Shown here piece after piece: positions 7,199 through 63,503 of a stretch of 64,000 nt of DNA. Origin of the DNA: Mesodorylaimus sp. YZB2_4 (Eukaryota > Nematoda > Enoplea > Dorylaimida > Dorylaimidae). The stretch spans positions 372,001 to 436,000 of the forward strand of contig JASANH010001518.1 of assembly GCA_030248295.1 (NCBI GenBank). The letters are read 5' to 3'. The position numbers and the translations under genes are program-made. The notes below the pieces were generated by a model that searched no databases, had not been told where the DNA came from, and worked only from the letters and a program-made list of their open reading frames with translations. Positions within the stretch are counted from its first letter, which is position 1; every line of letters starts with the position of its first letter.

Positions 7199-9879
7199 AT
7201 GACGAGGAAGCGTGTTGCGCTCTTGCTCATATGCGCCTTCGCAATTTGGCCAGCCTATGGCCAAATCTTCGGTCAACCTAGCCTTCCCCTAGGAGGATTC
7301 GGAGGTGGATTAGGCGGCGGCGGTTGCGGAGGTGGCGGTGGAGGATGCGGCGGTGGTGCCTTCCAAAGTGGAGGTGGCGGTGGCGGTGGTGGCAGTAGAG
7401 GTGGAGCCATTTTCGGACCACCCAGTTTGCCTTCATTCGGCGGCGGGTGCCAGCCTCCATGCGGAGGAGGTGAGTGCTATGTCGTATATAGGAGTACACA
7501 CTGGCACTGGAACTGTGAGAGACACTTAACCACTGAACTGTGAGGGATAGATGCCATGATATCATGTGCACAATATAATATATGAGCCCATTCCAGGAGG
7601 AGGAGGAGGCGGCGGCGGCGGCGGCGGTGGTTACGGAGGTGGAGGCGGTGGATACGGCGGCGGTGGAGACAGTGGCGGCTATGGGGGTAAGTCACGCACC
7701 TGGCCATTTTAATGAGCTGACTAAAATGTAGTACGATGCATGGCATGGCTAGAACTGATTAGCTAGCTGGTTCTCTGTGCGTCTTTCTGTGACCTGACGA
7801 CTGACAGTGCTTTCGCAGATGAATGAGCACGTAACATAGAAAGCGACTAATAGCTTGATGGTCTGTGCTTTTCTGGTATTAACAGGCGGGGATATAGATC
7901 TTGGCGGTTTTCCACTCAAAATTCAGCGAGTGCAACAGAAGTTTGATCGACTAATGGCGCAAAAAAGCAACGTGCGGTCGAGCTTTGGCCGTCGCCCCGC
8001 TGGCCGGCTGTCCCTAGGTGACGGCTATAGCGGAGGTGAGGGCCCATGCATGTCAACTTACTGTTCTGTCGTTTGCTAACCCGTCACGACGACCCGCCAC
8101 ACCATATATAGCATTCTTTTAGGCGACAGCGGTGGAAGCTACGGAGGAGACAGTGGAGGCTATGGAGGCGGTAGTCAACAGGCTGGCAGCCAGCAAGGCG
8201 GCTATGGAGGCGGCGACCCAGGCGGATATGAGGGCAGCCAACAGGCTGGCAGCCAGCAAGGCGGCTATGGAGGCGGCGACCCAGGCGGATATGGGGGCAG
8301 CCAACAGGCTGGTAGCCAGCAAGGTGGCTATGGAGGCGGTGACAGTGACGGATATGGCGGCGGTGACCCCGGCGGATATGGTGGCAGTCAACAGGCCGGA
8401 AGCCAACAAGGTGGCTATGGAGGTGGTGACCCAGGTGGATATGGCGGTGACAGCGGAGGATACGGTGGCAGTCAACAGGCTGGTAGTCAACAGGGTGGAT
8501 ATGGAGGCGGCGATCCAGGTGGATATGGCGGTGACAGTGGCGGATATGGCGGCAGTCAACAGGCTGGTAGCCAGCAAGGTGGCTATGGAGGCGGTGATAG
8601 TGACGGATATGGCGGCGGTGACAGTGGCGGATATGGCGGCAGTCAACAGGCTGGTAGTCAACAGGGTGGATATGGAGGCGGTGACCCAGGTGGATATGGC
8701 GGTGACAGCGGCGGATATGGCGGCAGTCAACAGGCTGGTAGCCAGCAAGGGGGCTATGGAGGCGGCGACAGTGACGGATATGGTGGTGACAGCGGAGGGT
8801 ATGGCGGCAGCCAACAAGCCGGTAGCCAGCAAGGCGGATATGGTGGTAGCCAGCAAGCTGGCAGTCAACAAGGAGGATATGGCGGCGGTAAGTTATTATC
8901 TGAATATTTACCTTACAGTCCAATGCTAGTTTGGAAAAAAAGACAACGTTAAAAAGAAGACGACTGACGCAGTAACTTATTTTTAATGTTTTTAGATGGC
9001 GGGTATGGTGGAGGACCACCAAAACCTCCAGGCGGCGGACCCCCGCGGCCACCAGCAGGCGGCGGCGGCGGTCCACCTCAACCCCCAGCAGGCGGCGGCG
9101 GCGGTCCACCTCAACCCCCAGCAGGCGGCGGCGGCGGTCCACCTCAACCCCCAGCAGGCGGCGGCGGCGGTCCACCTCAACCCCCAGCAGGCGGCGGCGG
9201 CGGTCCACCTCAACCCCCAGCAGGCGGCGGCGGCGGTCCACCTCAACCCCCAGCAGGCGGCGGCGGCGGTCCACCTCAACCCCCAGCAGGCGGCGGCGGT
9301 GGTCCACCTCAACCCCCAGCAGGCGGCGGCGGCGGTCCACCTCAACCCCCAGCAGGCGGCGGCGGCGGTCCACCTCAACCCCCAGCAGGCGGCGGTGGCG
9401 GTCCACCTCAACCCCCAGGAGGCGGCAGTGGCGGTGCGCCTCAACCTCCAGGTGGAGGCTATGGAAAGCCCCCGTCTCCGCCAAGCTATGAAAACAAAGC
9501 TCCTGCGACCCAGAAACCATATGTGGCTTCTCCTCCCCCTCCTCCTCCCCCACCACCTCCACCTCCACCACCTCCACCTCCACCTCCTCCTCCCCCACCA
9601 CCTCCACCTCCACCACCACCACCTACACCACCACCACCACCACCACCACCACCTCCACCACCACCACCACCACCACCTCCTGTCTCTCCTCCACCTCCAC
9701 AACCACCAGGACCTTCTGATAACAAGCTTCCAGCAACGCAGAGGCCCTACGTTCCTTCTCCAGCACCAGCTACGGCTGCTCCTCCGCAGCCTCCTAGTTA
9801 TGGACCTTCTCCTGCTCCTCCTAAACCTCCATCATACGGGTCCTCACCGAAACCGTACTTCGAGAGGCTCCGAAAATAG
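7199..9879 (+). CDS. Secreted Gly/Gln/Pro-rich repeat protein (cuticle or matrix type)
   Basis: Five exons give 719 aa: 7199-7469, 7597-7686, 7886-8035, 8123-8887, 8996-9879. All four introns are phase 1 and split a glycine codon or a G|AT codon. The N-terminus [21 protein letters not shown] is a signal peptide, apparently cleaved before QIFGQPSLP. Exons 1-2 are poly-Gly with scattered Cys. Exon 3 holds the only non-repetitive segment ([20 protein letters not shown]). Exon 4 repeats [19 protein letters not shown] units about ten times. Exon 5 has eleven nearly exact 11-residue units ([11 protein letters not shown]), then two long poly-proline runs split by TPP, and a PSYG/PKPPSYG tail ending [11 protein letters not shown]. 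Low-complexity structural proteins of this kind are typical of cuticle, eggshell or adhesive secretions; the actual tissue cannot be inferred. Long frames on the opposite strand here are shadows of the repeats. Confidence 0.8.
8123..8887 (+). repeat. Degenerate coding repeats, [13 protein letters not shown] units
   Basis: About ten copies of a unit of roughly 65-85 bp encode [15 protein letters not shown] with variable [14 protein letters not shown] or DSDGYGG spacers. The copies differ at synonymous sites, so they are older than the 33-bp array in the next exon. Confidence 0.85.
9055..9417 (+). repeat. 33-bp coding minisatellite, 11 units
   Basis: Eleven head-to-tail copies of a 33-bp unit encode [11 protein letters not shown]. 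The copies are almost identical, with one or two synonymous changes visible, for example GGC to GGT. This points to recent expansion or homogenisation and to likely length polymorphism. Confidence 0.9.
9529..9690 (+). repeat. CCT/CCA microsatellite encoding poly-proline
   Basis: A near-pure array of CCT and CCA codons gives two long proline runs separated by a single Thr. It is purine/pyrimidine asymmetric and probably unstable in length. Confidence 0.85.
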
Positions 9880-37632: not shown

Positions 37633-40574
37633 ATGGGTTGCAAAAAGATTGAGGAAGTGTTGAGATGCATATTCCAGTGGTACGGGGAATTGATGGGGCG
37701 TCATCCTCTTCCCTTCCTCATCATGCCTTTGATTTTTACCCTGATCGTTGGTCCTGGTCTGTTCATTATGAAATACGACGATGATGCTTTCATGATGTTC
37801 ACACCCTATAACTCCCCGTCACGCCGAGAGCAACAAATATCTCGCCATTTTGCCCATACGGCTGATCGCAATTCGACAATCGGTCCTAATGGCAAGATCG
37901 CCTTGCCCATGACCTCCGACGACGATTCGTATACGGACGAGTGGTTTAACATACAAGTGGTGACTAATGACAACCTCATTAACCACCATTCGATGCTTGT
38001 CATCTCCGACTTTGTTAACAAAGTTTATTCAAACTTCACATGCCAAGTGGACCAGTGGATCGAGAACGCAAAGGTGATGGCCAAGGGCCAAGGCTCTTCT
38101 GGTCCTCCCTACACCTTGCACTATCAGCGGGACTTCTGTAATCCAAACCGTGGCTGCTTCCAACTGAACACTGTCATGGACAAACTAACTGATCTTCTCA
38201 ACACTACCAAGTACGGAAATAATTCCAAAGTGCAACTAACGTACCCGGTCATGTACGTATGGGTAAGTCAGTCAAGGCCATGTAAAAAAGCTACTCGAAT
38301 TGAAGGCGTGTTTTCTCTTAGGATCGACCATTCAATTGGGGCCAGTATCTTTTCGGAGTGAAAGTGAATCCAGAAACTGGGAAACTTGAATCGGCTCGAT
38401 TATTAGGTTTGTACTTCCAATTCCAAGTTAAGTTGGACCCCCGCGCGAAAGCTGCAGCTAAATCTTGCCTCCTTCAACTGACTGAACATGTGCTGGCTCA
38501 GAACCGAGACAATGCCGAGCTGAAAAAGGCTAACCTCACATTTTTCGCCTTCAACGAGCCTTATTTGGCTGACGAACTGTCCCGTATACAAGGCTACTCT
38601 ATTCCCTATCTGGTTATCGTCATTGTGATCATCGTAGCTTTCGTCGCTATCTCTTCATTCAAACGGCGTTACGCGCGCTGGAGTCTATTGGGCGCTGGCA
38701 TGGGAGTCCTCACAGTCGGCTTATCACTGCTGGCTTCCTATGGATTCATGTGCTTCTGTGGTCTGTATATGAACTTTATTGTGGCCATCACACCATTCTT
38801 GGTCCTGACTGTCGGCATAGATAATGACTTCCTGATCACATCGGCCTGGCGCCAATCGGCCGATGGCCACTCACCAGTCCACCGCCGCATGGGTCGAGCT
38901 TTCGCTGATTGCGGTCCAAGTCTGACCATCACTAGCTTAAACGATATTTTGTGTTTCAGTGTTGGCTACTTGTCCGACACACCAGCAGTGGCTGATTTCT
39001 GCTTGCATACAGCCGTAGCACTGCTTTTCCGTTTTCTGTTCCAATTGACTTTTTTCGCCGCCATCATGGTCTACATTGGACGCAAGGAAGTTATGATCGA
39101 CCAAGAACCAGCCGAGACCAAGAAACCGCTGTTCGACTTTTTTAAGAGAGCCTCTATCGCCGCTGCTGACCCGGTTCCAAAGAAGACACCATCAGTGCTT
39201 GTAGAGATAACTGATATTCATTCCGTGACTCATCAACTCGCTCCAACGACGGAGCACCACCGAATTCACTCATTTTTTGGTCAAACATACGCCACCTTCC
39301 TTATGCGCAAGAGCGTCCGCATGGTCACGGCTATAATATACGTTGTGTACATTGTAGCTGCTGTATATGGCGCTGCCACGTGGAAAGTCGAAATCACTCC
39401 ACAGAAACTGTTTTTTGACGACTCAATTTTACAGAAAGGTTTTGACGGTGGTGACCATAATGTCAGACCTGAAGCAATCATTGGTCGAGTCTTTGTGACC
39501 ACACCACCTGACTTCCGTTACAAAGCTAATGTCGATAGATTCTTAGAGTTCGTCGAGGACCTGGAGAACTTGGACAACAGCAACTATTCTCGCACGACCG
39601 GCATACACAAAAGTGATTTGACAGATGTGTGGCTTCGTAGCTATAATGACTTCTTCGATAGCCTCCATCCAAGTGATATGGACGAAGTGGGCGACAACGT
39701 TTATAGACCTGATTTCTACGACTACTTACCAGATTTCTTAGAAAGCGCCGATTATAATCGATTCTTACTAAATATTCGATTCAAACAGGAGAACTCCTCG
39801 AGCGATGTCAAACTGGTCAGATTTTACTTTGTAGTGTCCTATTTCCGACCTCCCGAACATGGATACAGCTACGAAGAGCACGTTGACATGCTCCTGCGTT
39901 GGAGAGCTGTATGTCGTAACTACAGTGAGTATGGTGCCATAGTCATCGATTCCTTTTACATGAACCCTTACTTCGATCAAATTATCACTTTGGCACCTGC
40001 TTGTCTCCAAACCATGGGTATCGCTCTGTTATCGATGTCGTTCGTGACAGCTGTCTTCATGCCTCACGTGCGTGGCATGTTCTTCATATGCCTCAGTTTC
40101 TTGTCGGTCGATGTGGGAGTGATCGCTGGCCTGAACATGTGGCGATCAGCTTTGGACCCGACAGCCATGGCATTTTTATTGATGACCATCGGCTTCTCAG
40201 TCTATTACACTGCTCGTGTCTGCTACTGTTACCAAACGGCAGGTAGTTCGTTGAGTAGCGTAGAGAAAATGCGTCGGACAATGGAAACCGTGGGCTGGCC
40301 AATCCTGCAAGGTGCTCTCGCCACCCTGCTAGGCATCTTGCCCATCACATTGGTCACTTGCTACATGATGCGGGTCTTCTATCGTACTGTCATCCTCACC
40401 GTGGTCATTGGCCTAGCGCATGGTCTAATCATCATGCCCACTTTCATGTGCGCATTTGATCGAACGGAGAGTCCGATGGATGCGAAAAGGAGAGAAGCGA
40501 CTAAAACAAAGAAACCTCATCGAAAGAGCATTGTCGACGCATCGCACGATGCGTCATCTGAATGCAGTCAGTAG
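37633..40574 (+). CDS. Patched-related (PTR) membrane protein with sterol-sensing domain
   Basis: Two exons (37633-38262 and 38322-40574) give 960 aa. TM1 (FLIMPLIFTLIVGPGLFIM) is followed by a first extracellular loop with several N-glycosylation sites and Cys. The sterol-sensing domain (TM2-6) starts near IPYLVIVIVIIVAFVAISSF and contains VGIDNDFLITSAWR, the counterpart of the RND/SSD aspartate motif. A short cytosolic segment, TM7 (MVTAIIYVVYIVAAVYGAAT), a second large extracellular domain and TM8-12 follow. The size and twelve-TM plan are typical of PTR proteins. These are numerous in ecdysozoans and are linked to moulting, cuticle and lipid trafficking; the exact substrate is unknown. 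ATTAAA occurs near 40727. A TATA box sits about 95 bp upstream of the start. Confidence 0.9.
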
Positions 40575-57900: not shown

Positions 57901-58120
57901 GATATTATGAATGTTAAGAATGAGGTGGAGGTTGAGAACTCGTATTTGTCATGGTGTTCAGCTTCTTATCACGTCACACTATTTCCTTTGGCTTTCTGTT
58001 GTTGCTCCCAGCGGGAGTAGCCACTCTATGCATAAGGAAGTATTTCCACCGTGCCATGCATCATTTCGCACATGAGAGTCTAATTCAATGTTCCTTCCTT
58101 TCAGCCCCCGACTGGACGAA
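54977..58120. other. Intergenic, nothing recognised
   Basis: About 3.1 kb with scattered short frames on both strands, the longest 121 codons near 55680-56045 (-), without motif or splice support. The right end includes a pyrimidine tract and CAG at about 58104, a possible acceptor for a non-coding 5' exon of the GPCR. Confidence 0.5.
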
Positions 58121-59458
58121 ATGAACTCGAACGAGATCACGTCCACTCTCGTGCCAACACCACCCAAGCAATCGCTATCCGATTACATGCTTCTGATCCT
58201 CCTGGTGGGTTGCATCTGCCTGGGCACTCCTATGTCCATAATGATGATCTTGAGACTTATGCGACGTTTGCAATTACCAACATGCGGCACGTGTCGGCCT
58301 CGGCGCTGCACAAATGGCGCAGATCATTTGGCCCGAGATGGTAGCAATCGAAGTCACAGAAGTCGGCGGGGATCGCTTACACCGTCACTGCCTCGATTGG
58401 AGGCGAGACGGCGTTATGACTGGCTAAAGTTGCAGTTGAACGTGGCCGACCTGATGGTCCTGGTCTTCTACGCATTCAGTAAGGTAGTTTGGACAATGAC
58501 TTACGACTGGAGAGGTGGCGAGATTTTGTGCAAATTAGTACGCTTCCTGAACGTCCTATCATTCCACATGTGCTCAAATTCAGTCGTGTGCATTGGATTG
58601 GAACGGATGATCGCGCTACTTAGACCCTTTCCTTCTACACAACCGTGCATGTCACGTTTTATAGCCAGAGAATATATCATGTTATCAGTATCATGTACGT
58701 TAGCCGTCTTGCTAAGTCTGCCTCAATTCTGGGTTTGGACAGTGGCCGAGATGTCGCCGGATTGGCGGCAATGCGTGACGGTATGGCTGGCAGGCATTCA
58801 ACGCCGAAACAGTCTAAGCGACGAGGAGCTGACATTAGCCGACCTGTACAACATAACCCATCTGATCATGATATTCTGGTTACCCCTGACCGTTATTACG
58901 GTGTGCTATATCGTTATCGTCGTACACGTGATCATGCACTTAAACGAGACTACGGTCAAAGAAGCAAGAGGGGGCTCAGTGCGCAGTCAGGCGGCCGAGG
59001 TGGCGGCGGAAGAACCATCGGACGTGGTGACTTATCGTCGACGTCGTGTCTCGCGCATGCCGAGCATATTCTTATCACCAACTCGTCGCCACCTGTTGGT
59101 TCTGCGTCTGCTGGCCCTGCGTGGCAGACTAAAGTGTGGTCGATTGACACGAGCGTTATGCCGCCAAACGTTGATCGTCCTGACTGCTTACATCGTTTGC
59201 TGGTTGCCATACAATGCGTTCACACTCTGGGCGTACTTCAGCCCTGATCATCATAACCGGTATCGAACTACTGTCAGATTTTTGCAAGAGTTGATCGTGG
59301 TGAACAGTGTTATCAACCCGTTCTTGTACGCCTGCGATGTTTACAATCAGATCGTCCATGAACGATCCCATGGGGAACGGCGTAAATGCGCTTGTTCTGT
59401 TGTGTTATGTCCTTGCAGCCTGGCCGAAGACAGCGAGGCATCGCAGCAGTTTCTGTGA
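58121..59458 (+). CDS. Class A (rhodopsin-like) neuropeptide-type GPCR, GnRH/AKH-like
   Basis: A single exon of 445 aa from the ATG at 58121; the frame is open from 58088, but an acceptor-like CTTTCAG precedes this ATG. TM1 is YMLLILLVGCICLGTPMSIM. TM2 carries LQLNVADLMVLVFY with the conserved Asp. The TM3 Cys is in ILCKLVRFLNVL, and the DRY position reads ERM. ECL2 has RQCVTVW, TM6 has CWLPYNAF, and TM7 has NSVINPFLY. The LNVADLMV, SNSVVCIGLERM and QCVT features resemble the GnRH/AKH/corazonin group, but a closely related peptide receptor group is possible. ICL1 is exceptionally long, about 50 residues, basic and Cys/Arg/Ser-rich. ICL3 is also long and basic. Confidence 0.75.
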   Translation: MNSNEITSTLVPTPPKQSLSDYMLLILLVGCICLGTPMSIMMILRLMRRLQLPTCGTCRPRRCTNGADHLARDGSNRSHRSRRGSLTPSLPRLEARRRYDWLKLQLNVADLMVLVFYAFSKVVWTMTYDWRGGEILCKLVRFLNVLSFHMCSNSVVCIGLERMIALLRPFPSTQPCMSRFIAREYIMLSVSCTLAVLLSLPQFWVWTVAEMSPDWRQCVTVWLAGIQRRNSLSDEELTLADLYNITHLIMIFWLPLTVITVCYIVIVVHVIMHLNETTVKEARGGSVRSQAAEVAAEEPSDVVTYRRRRVSRMPSIFLSPTRRHLLVLRLLALRGRLKCGRLTRALCRQTLIVLTAYIVCWLPYNAFTLWAYFSPDHHNRYRTTVRFLQELIVVNSVINPFLYACDVYNQIVHERSHGERRKCACSVVLCPCSLAEDSEASQQFL

Positions 59459-60948: not shown

Positions 60949-62412
60949 ATGGGCGAGACGGGCGAAAAAGAGAAAACCGTGGACGCAGACCCGACTAAGG
61001 GCTGTACCCATATCCAAGCCGCATTCAAGGAATTACACACCAGCTTAACGGAGAGGTTGGACCGATTTCGGAAAGGTCTGGAATCCAGCCCATCGTTGGA
61101 TCAGTTCATAAAGGAATATTTCCGAAAAGATGAAATTTTTGAGGCCGTTGCTGGGCCTTATATCCGTCTCTTCGACTCCCTCGGAGTTGCCAGTAGAGAA
61201 GGCTTGGAGAAGGTCAAAACTGAGTGCATGGAAGACGAAGAAGGAGGTATGGATTTGATCGTGATGAAAGATTACGTAAAGTTTTCTTGCAGGATTGATA
61301 CGCTGTTTGGACGATGTGGAAGCGGTGGAGAAATTGTGGGACGAGCTGCTTTTGGACATTGACAGGCGCATGAATGAGCACAAATCGCAAGATATTCGGT
61401 CAGTTACGCCTGGTAGGGAAGAGAGTTGATTTCGCCTGTTGTGCAGCCTAATCTTGGCTTGTCTTTCTTCGTGTAGATGCGATTGAACTCATAGATTGCG
61501 ACACGGGTAAGCAATCTATCCCTTGAAAAGACCTTGTCTTACTGAGACGACGGACGGACGGGCGACGAAGCACGTGAATGATGCATGTCAGCCCTATTTT
61601 GACTGCATTCCTCCGGTTGGGTCTATCCAAATTGTGCGAGTTTGAGGGATGGAGGTAGCACTCCGTTCGCACATGCACTTCACATGCACAACTAACGTTT
61701 AGATGGGGGCGATGCATTGGGACTTCCGTTTCGTGCAGCCAAGCCATTACTCTTTTAATGTTCAGCACATTCTTTTGTAGAAAAAGCAATCACCTTGAAA
61801 TCATGTTTGGATTCGAAAACGTTAACAGAGAAAACAAGCGAGAATGGACAACGACCCATTCAATACACGCTCTTTGTTCTGCTTCGCTTTTATGGATGAG
61901 GAGCTTGAGAGAAGTTTGTCGCCCAAGTGCAGGAAAACGCCTCGCAGTTCTTGAACAACGGGTGTAACATTGTTATTGTATGCAAGGGGTCCAAGGAAGG
62001 TGGCAAGAAATGGAGAGCACGAGTCGGCCTTAGCCTACCTGTCCTGGCTGATGAAAGATCTCATTTTGTTGAAAGCTTCGATTTTCCGAGATCCGTTTGG
62101 AACGCGGCTAGAACGGATGTGTGCTACATTTTAGCTTGTAAAGTCAAGATGGATTCTCTACCCAATGAAGATCCGAATGCTGACTTTTTTCAAATGGGGG
62201 GCGAAATCCTGATGGATGCCAGTGGCAACGTGCTGCACTTGCACAGATGTCAGACACCCGAGGACAGACCAACTTGTCAAGACCTGATGCAATTGGTCAA
62301 CAGTGCATCCAGGGCGACAGATACGAGCAATCGCGTGGAAAAGAGCGAGACGAAAGAGTTTCAGCGCAAAGAGAAATCACGAGGATGCGTCAAACTGTGC
62401 GTGCTGGTGTAA
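60949..62412 (+). CDS. SELENOL: Selenoprotein L: Prx-like2 selenoprotein with a UxxU redox motif
   Basis: Four exons, all joined in phase 1: 60949-61246, 61293-61412, 61477-61506 and 61781-62412, giving 359 aa with two in-frame UGA codons (61897-61899 and 61906-61908) read as selenocysteine. The N-terminal 150 residues are helical (LDQFIKEYFRKDEIFEAVAG, then KLWDELLLDIDRRM). The thioredoxin-fold Prx-like2 domain follows: YTLFVLLRFYG-U-GA-U-EKF, CNIVIVCKGS, LPVLADERSHFVE, and MGGEILMDASGNVLHLHRCQ with TPEDRP. The UGAU segment sits exactly where Prx-like2 proteins carry their CxxC redox motif. Selenoprotein L is known to form a diselenide at this motif. Flanking conservation continues on both sides of each UGA, and a SECIS element lies 9 nt after the TAA, so these are not ordinary stops. 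Upstream in-frame ATGs make the start uncertain. Confidence 0.85.
61897..61908 (+). other. Double selenocysteine recoding site (UGA-GGA-GCU-UGA)
   Basis: Two UGA codons separated by two sense codons encode U-G-A-U. The frame before them (TLFVLLRFYG) and after them (EKFVAQVQENASQFLN) is the Prx-like2 active-site strand and helix, so both must be decoded for the protein to be made. Confidence 0.85.
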
Positions 62413-62420
62413 GGGGTCGC

Positions 62421-62485
62421 GAGTGCTTATGACGGTGAAAGCGTAAACTTCCATCGGAAGCTGCTTTGGCCTGATGCATGCACTT
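62421..62485 (+). promoter_or_regulatory. SECIS element, type 2
   Basis: Helix I: GAGTGC (62421-62426) with GCACTT (62480-62485). Internal loop TT facing GCAT. Non-Watson-Crick core: ATGA (62429-62432) opposite TGAT (62472-62475). Helix II: GGTGAAAGCG (62434-62443) with TGCTTTGGCC (62462-62471), including G-U pairs and one G-G mismatch. Conserved AAA at 62445-62447, 12 nt after ATGA. Apical ministem CTTCC (62448-62452) with GGAAG (62456-62460) over a 3-nt loop, which makes it type 2. Core bases, spacing and position all meet the eukaryotic SECIS consensus. Confidence 0.85.
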
Positions 62486-63503
62486 GAGTTTTGAAAGTGC
62501 GCAGTTGTTGTTCGTGGTGCCGTGCAGTAGATACAAGTGTGGAATATGGAAGACAATTTCAGTTTGCAGTGCCAGAGTAAACTGTGAAAAACGTTGTAAT
62601 AGCCTTCTCGGCAGGCACTCCTAACACATGCTACTAGCAGAACTGTGGCACCCAGCCGGAAATACCTTCTCTCACGACCTGTAGGGGTTGTTTATTCTGA
62701 TCAATGTCCAGAGAGGTGCGTTTTAAGCCTGCGGCAAGGTAGCCATGTGGGTACACATCCGCCCGGCCTCAACATGGGTAGCGTCCTAAACAAGTAAGGA
62801 CGCTCGCTGGCTGGAATGAAGTATGAGCACCTGAAAGACTACGTGTGGATGAGGAAGTTTGAGACGCGTAAAAAGTGGACAAATATGCGCACTATGCGGC
62901 CACGCTCTAAAAATGGGAAGCAAAAAGAAGGTATTCTAGTGGCTACGTCAGACAAGATACATGACGCCAAAATTCCGAACAGGGCGCGGTCGATGGCATG
63001 CTCCCGTACGCGTAGCGTGAGTCGTACCTGTGATGGCTCGATTTGGCCCAAAAACGAGTTGCATCATTGCAGAAATTGCGAGGCACACCCGAGCACATGC
63101 CATAGCAATCGGCTGCACCCTTGGCAAGGCAGTTGACAATGATGGTAAACATTGGACATTGCACCTGACAGCAAACCATTCACCCACCCATCCAACCTGT
63201 ACGTGGCTAGAAGCTAGAGAGTGTTACAACGAAAACTGTGTGGAGTGGGCCGTTGCCATAGCCCTCAGCAATTAATTTAACAAAGACTATGTATGGCGCG
63301 AAAAACGCATGACTAGTTTCTCATTGATTTTCTAATGATGTCTGAAAATGGCACGCAAGTACGTTTCTACAGTAGTGACTCAGAAGATTGAAAAGTATTC
63401 AAGTATCGGACGTGCCCGAACAAGCAGAATTTTCTCTCGTGATGGCCTGGTTCACGTGACGTTCGCGCTCTCCGCGTAGAATTGCGCAATAAAGGATGAA
63501 AAG
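62486..63503. other. Selenoprotein 3' flank and intergenic DNA
   Basis: Contains the rest of the 3' UTR. No canonical AATAAA was found close by. Short frames only. Confidence 0.5.

Follow-up and report, generated by a model that had tools for sequence, protein, structure and literature searches.

The stretch of DNA described here (the window, 64 kb at its full length) carries a gene that very probably encodes a nematode selenoprotein L (SelL) and is one of four paralogues in its genome. On balance, we favour the wider reading that a nematode lineage with a broad selenoproteome made SelL into a family of prenyl-anchored membrane selenoenzymes, in which UxxU and UxxS active sites (U, selenocysteine) occur together.

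Selenoprotein L is described as having a thioredoxin-like domain with two selenocysteines (Sec) two residues apart, and one SECIS element on the 3' side of the gene (PMC3316567, PMC12822975), and the gene in the window, SelL-A, has the same make-up. The present proteins differ from known SelL in their nematode host, in being encoded by four copies, in the UxxS form of two of them and perhaps in a CaaX-type end.

The SelL-A Gene

SelL-A has four exons (Table 1), and the spliced frame from 60949 to 62412 encodes 359 aa with the motif U-G-A-U. The initial annotation had drawn this gene at 60949-62485, and its coordinates and the 359-aa frame were both borne out. The two in-frame TGA codons that it read as Sec are in place, the column of the first being common to the three paralogues, and the paralogue alignment confirmed that conserved family sequence lies on both sides of them. 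Both codons are inside exon 4 and the flanking frame is conserved in the paralogues, which speaks against an intron that would excise them.

Table 1. Predicted features of SelL-A, in window positions.
Feature	Position	Strand	Basis
Exon 1, N-terminal region	60949..61246	+	Frame and splice sites; B, C and D have one like it
Intron 1, 46 nt, GT-AG	61247..61292	+	From sequence
Exon 2, holds E..WD.L....D motif	61293..61412	+	Motif positions invariant in 5/5 aligned proteins
Intron 2, 64 nt, GT-AG	61413..61476	+	From sequence
Exon 3	61477..61506	+	Frame and splice sites
Intron 3, 274 nt, GT-AG	61507..61780	+	From sequence
Exon 4, thioredoxin-like SelL domain, tail and stop TAA (62410-62412)	61781..62412	+	Frame, family models
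First Sec codon, TGA	61897..61899	+	TGA in same alignment column of B, C and D
Second Sec codon, TGA	61906..61908	+	Matched by TGA in B and by Ser in C and D
Cys codon and putative palmitoylation site, 4 residues ahead of the Cys of the CaaX box	62386..62388	+	
CaaX-type box CVLV, predicted prenylation site	62398..62409	+	Cys at -4 in 4/4 copies and 2/2 Plectus models
SECIS (Rfam SECIS_1)	62421..62485	+	39.1 bits, gathering 35, E 1.1e-5

The Prx-like2 domain proposed at the outset was recovered by profile search, in which Pfam AhpC-TSA_2 matches exon 4 alone with an E value of 6e-9 and the whole 359-aa protein with 2e-8. The identification as SelL, also proposed there, is supported by the NCBIfam model NF040769 ("SelL-related redox protein"), which matches exon 4 at 88.4 bits with an E value of 4e-25, although this is under its curated cut-off of 120. 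The model ranks first for all six proteins scanned, at 33-88 bits, none of which reaches 120; it was built for prokaryotic annotation and also has matches below its cut-off in seven of 14 control prokaryotes. The assignment to SelL was made through such family models.

An AlphaFold2 model of SelL-A exon 4, computed with one relative and with Cys in place of Sec, is of low confidence (mean pLDDT 54.6, pTM 0.57). In its better part, the structural elements follow the thioredoxin-type order and the Sec sites, residues 39 and 42, begin a helix (40-51); residues 179-209 have a pLDDT below 50. Sequence searches of the PDB gave weak matches only, some to thioredoxin-like proteins (ResA, Rv2238c) and others to unrelated ones taken as chance.

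Four Paralogues with UxxU and UxxS Active Sites

A search of the genome with exon 4 returned four SelL loci among five candidates, and NF040769 finds the same four. SelL-B, SelL-C and SelL-D all lie outside the window. SelL-B (C135, L010) reads RFFEUSSUEDF and ends in CSIL followed by TGA, with a longer model of 374 aa. SelL-C (C36, L009) reads RFFGURISERY and ends in CNLM (348 aa in the longer model for one choice of donor), and SelL-D (C50, L011) reads RFYGUYTSERY and ends in CVIL (330-364 aa in the longer model, depending on the choice of start). The longer models of all three carry an N-terminal region like that of SelL-A, including the E..WD.L....D motif. SelL-A and SelL-B are UxxU proteins; SelL-C and SelL-D are UxxS, and hence not classical UxxU SelL. 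The TGA that ends SelL-B stands about 15 nt before its SECIS candidate and the two TGAs upstream are predicted to be Sec, so that UGA would have two meanings in one mRNA.

Identity among the four copies is 34-48%, and between them and a protein of the nematode Plectus sambesii, A0A914VUT4, it is 28-34% (285 ungapped columns). SelL-A groups with SelL-B (bootstrap 100) and SelL-C with SelL-D (96), and Plectus sits on the branch between the two pairs; since the tree is unrooted, the duplications are undated relative to the split from Plectus. Searches of viral contigs and of prokaryote genomes yielded no relative.

The AhpC-TSA_2 scan lists one further locus, a Cys-type Prx-like2 relative with the sequence FGCQICRW (L033, C22:690620-690931, minus strand). 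It resembles the SelL copies in its match to AhpC-TSA_2 and differs from them in having CQIC in place of UxxU or UxxS and in being unlisted by NF040769.

Could the four genes belong to another selenoprotein branch of the Prx-like2 family, akin to SelU or PRXL2? AhpC-TSA_2 (PF13911) is the family that such proteins share, and it matches all five aligned SelL-type proteins; in addition, SelL-C and SelL-D are UxxS, and prokaryotes are listed with a UxxS form of a peroxiredoxin-like family, cd02970 (PMC13188914). However, SelL-A and SelL-B are UxxU, SelL-A scores 88 bits with NF040769 and 37 bits with AhpC-TSA_2, and NF040769 passes over the Cys-type relative on C22 while listing all four SelL loci. 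We consider such a branch quite improbable, and the genes are treated as SelL below.

The Host Genome and Its Predicted Selenoproteins

The assembly comprises 145 Mb in 1067 contigs. The initial annotation had called the genome ecdysozoan-like, and this could be narrowed to a nematode because 133 matches to the cuticle collagen domain PF01484 were found among 137 candidates. We take this domain to be typical of nematodes; it has no match in the 14 control genomes, all of them prokaryotes. The window's own contig carries one match (C82:15000-15149), and others are on the contigs of SelL-B (C135), tRNA-Sec (C75), both thioredoxin reductases (TrxR; C1) and eEFSec (C3). A search of the genome for SL1 RNA gave no match, nor did it in any of the control genomes, so that this absence carries no weight.

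A COX1 frame that is open under the invertebrate mitochondrial code is present on C73 (L037, C73:253316-254668). There are 14 further COX1 matches, on 11 contigs in all; several contain stops, which may point to inserted mitochondrial DNA or to joins made in assembly.

Two of the nine long ORFs scanned in the window have a recognisable family, and both are of animal type: one encodes a Patched-type protein with a sterol-sensing domain (38325-40571), the other a rhodopsin-type receptor (58079-59455). The segment from 8176 to 9708 consists of GC-rich tandem repeats with units of 63, 84 and 255 nt, a 33-nt unit repeated 12.8 times and CCA-type runs, and carries long ORFs on both strands.

Genes of the machinery for Sec, on which the initial reading depended, are present in the genome. 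tRNA-Sec scores 76.4 bits against a gathering score of 47 and carries GGCUUCAAACC at its anticodon loop, and the fourth domain of eEFSec scores 124 bits and has no match in any control genome. SepSecS-type exons were found as well: the family PF05889 has seven matches at one place, which jointly span model positions 27 to 388, in a family that is not wholly specific, being also over its cut-off in Bacillus subtilis. The SelD model TIGR00476, which has matches in 14 of the 14 controls, gives four exon matches on C283, which at 25-58 bits fall short of its cut-off (125). SPS2 at this locus (L043/L041, C283:12830-14637) has LRGUGCKV in an N-terminal exon upstream of these matches, and is followed by a SECIS that scores 36.8 bits (L041:2089-2154; gathering 35).

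Two TrxR last exons on C1 (L004:1501-1564 and L005:1501-1566), identified by eye, end in NCUS and KCUS and have SECIS candidates of 29.8 and 27.4 bits. TrxR of a filarial nematode and of humans ends in GCUG (PMC8914392), compared with which the final Ser and the missing Gly are unusual. A SelS-like last exon on C67 (L006:1501-1561), also identified by eye, ends in GGGUG in the Sec form and has a SECIS candidate of 27.3 bits; these three SECIS scores, 27.3-29.8 bits, are all under the gathering score. At least eight putative Sec genes are visible in the genome: four SelL, two TrxR, SelS and SPS2.

SECIS Elements

The initial annotation placed a SECIS after the stop codon of SelL-A, and Rfam SECIS_1 does match there (Table 1), beginning 9 nt past the TAA. 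Of the five SECIS_1 matches that a scan of the whole genome lists, the element is the best and the sole one over the cut-off; the scan is a lower bound, with 134 of 2823 candidates scored and the elements of SelL-B, SelL-C, SelL-D and SPS2 unlisted. The folding energy of the surrounding stretch (62405-62520) is unremarkable, with a z score of 0.20 and 117 of 200 shuffles equally or more stable, so that the SECIS of SelL-A rests on the family model.

For the paralogues, Rfam gives 27.6 bits at SelL-B, under the gathering score of 35. At SelL-D, SECIS is the top match, with 18.5 bits and an E value of 0.76 when all 4227 families are run on 488 nt, again short of 35, and at SelL-C, Rfam reports no SECIS at E values up to 10 in 491 nt. 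Of two scans of our own, the first picked out the elements of SelL-A, SelL-D, both TrxR and SelS and missed those of SelL-B and SelL-C. The second, based on duplexes, scored -11.5 at SelL-A, -12.9 at SelL-B, -11.0 at SelL-D, -12.0 at SelS and -5.9 at SelL-C, the last against a background in which 37 of 600 segments, each of 600 nt and drawn at random from the window, had -6.0 or better; it gave nothing at the second TrxR and a different site at the first.

Alignment of the elements, in which the two sides of the helix do not stay in register, revealed a shared extended core, TGACG...AA...GATG. A search for this core together with a helix finds a site on the 3' side of all eight Sec genes. Across the window and loci L021-L026 (both strands; 230,012 nt), the core matches nine times: seven are the sites of those Sec genes whose sites fall in this DNA, all with helix, and two are elsewhere, without one. 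The search supports the SECIS candidate of SelL-C, known from our own scans alone, and is not an independent test, since the core comes from these very elements and SelL-C's own value served as the limit on energy. There is a candidate SECIS 3' of each of the four SelL genes. A further SECIS hit (L007, 22.5 bits) was taken as chance, as the adjoining frame, by eye, is no selenoprotein.

With active sites interrupted by in-frame stops, in a reading known from DNA alone, the SelL genes might be thought to be decaying, the TGAs being plain stops and the frame downstream a relic. This is hardly credible. All six of the stops are TGA and fall at the two redox positions, four in the first column and two in the second; the sequence downstream is conserved though the copies have diverged widely from each other; and the SECIS of SelL-A is over its gathering score in a genome that has the Sec machinery. 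We therefore retain the reading of functional Sec codons, and suggest that the ribosome would decode both UGAs of SelL-A through the single SECIS.

Relatives in Plectus

Among about 5.8 billion proteins, the only matches were two uncharacterised proteins of Plectus sambesii, A0A914VUT4 and A0A914X5M6, in a search that needs shared five-residue words and can miss relatives. Both have the N-terminal region, the SelL-type domain and a CaaX-type end in common with the SelL copies. Unlike these, the Plectus gene models are without the Sec segment: A0A914VUT4 passes from TLFVLLR directly to ENEF, and A0A914X5M6 omits a longer stretch around the segment. This would be explained most simply by a gene caller that steers clear of TGA codons, and the two models suggest how standard annotation hides SelL genes.

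CaaX-Type Tails

A common feature of these proteins, on which the initial annotation is silent, is that they end in a CaaX-type box. A Cys stands at position -4 in all four SelL copies (CVLV, CSIL, CNLM and CVIL, for A to D) and in both Plectus models (CNVM), while the approximately 30 residues before it do not align across the copies. A second Cys is found at -8 in SelL-A and SelL-B and at -7 in Plectus, and SelL-C and SelL-D have Lys-Lys-Ser just upstream. The first "a" is Ser or Asn in three of these and kindred ends (CSIL, CNLM, CNVM), which is looser than the strict CaaX consensus.

MIEN1, a relative of the SelW family and not of SelL, offers a point of comparison. It is geranylgeranylated and ends in CVIL, identical to the end of SelL-D, and the SelL tails as a group resemble those tabulated for Rho proteins and MIEN1 (PMC6738349). 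Its thioredoxin fold (PMC3527542) also recalls the SelL domain, the difference being that MIEN1 is a Cys form without Sec.

These tails could also be fortuitous, in which case the proteins would be true SelL but soluble. Prenylation is a motif call that lies beyond proof by sequence, and a permissive CaaX pattern occurs at three places within the 359 aa of SelL-A. To our knowledge, CVLV, with its final Val, is no textbook prenylation substrate. However, the Cys at -4 is kept in all six proteins amid residues that do not align, homologous copies that do not count as independent cases, and the end of SelL-D is one that is prenylated in MIEN1. A soluble SelL is thus judged unlikely, and a membrane-anchored SelL family in nematodes is the natural reading of the tails. 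In titles and abstract openings of the 15 papers listed, out of 29 that matched, on selenoproteins with CaaX ends or prenylation, no Sec-containing CaaX protein is mentioned, which is a thin basis for a claim of novelty.

How such a family might work can be outlined. The SelL domain would cycle between reduced and oxidised states, through a diselenide where the active site is UxxU (SelL-A and SelL-B) and through one reactive selenol where it is UxxS (SelL-C and SelL-D); thioredoxin and TrxR would probably recharge it. A prenyl group would be attached at the CaaX box, with a second anchor provided by the neighbouring Cys (SelL-A and SelL-B) or by basic residues (SelL-C and SelL-D), and the protein would then sit on the cytosolic face of a membrane as a tethered thiol/selenol oxidoreductase.

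SelL and Selenoprotein Loss in Nematodes

SelL has been tabulated for sponge, Trichoplax, Nematostella, Capitella and amphioxus, and not for Lottia (PMC3473315), and it is known from Ciona ESTs (PMC2874816); among vertebrates it is found in fishes only (PMC3316567). Nematodes are a textbook case of selenoprotein loss. C. elegans has one selenoprotein, for which the whole pathway is kept (PMC2375036, PMC4561486, PMC6155587), and among metazoans SPS-Cys has been reported from nematodes only (PMC4561486). No paper among the literature matches listed deals with SelL in nematodes.

If the present reading is true, a nematode with SPS2 in the Sec form, SelS, two TrxR and four SelL shows that the loss of selenoproteins was not phylum-wide. 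The natural series of UxxU and UxxS proteins lets one ask what a diselenide adds over a single selenol. The shared CaaX-type tails predict that these SelL proteins act at a membrane, and CaaX-anchored selenoproteins, if confirmed, would count as a new selenoprotein type.
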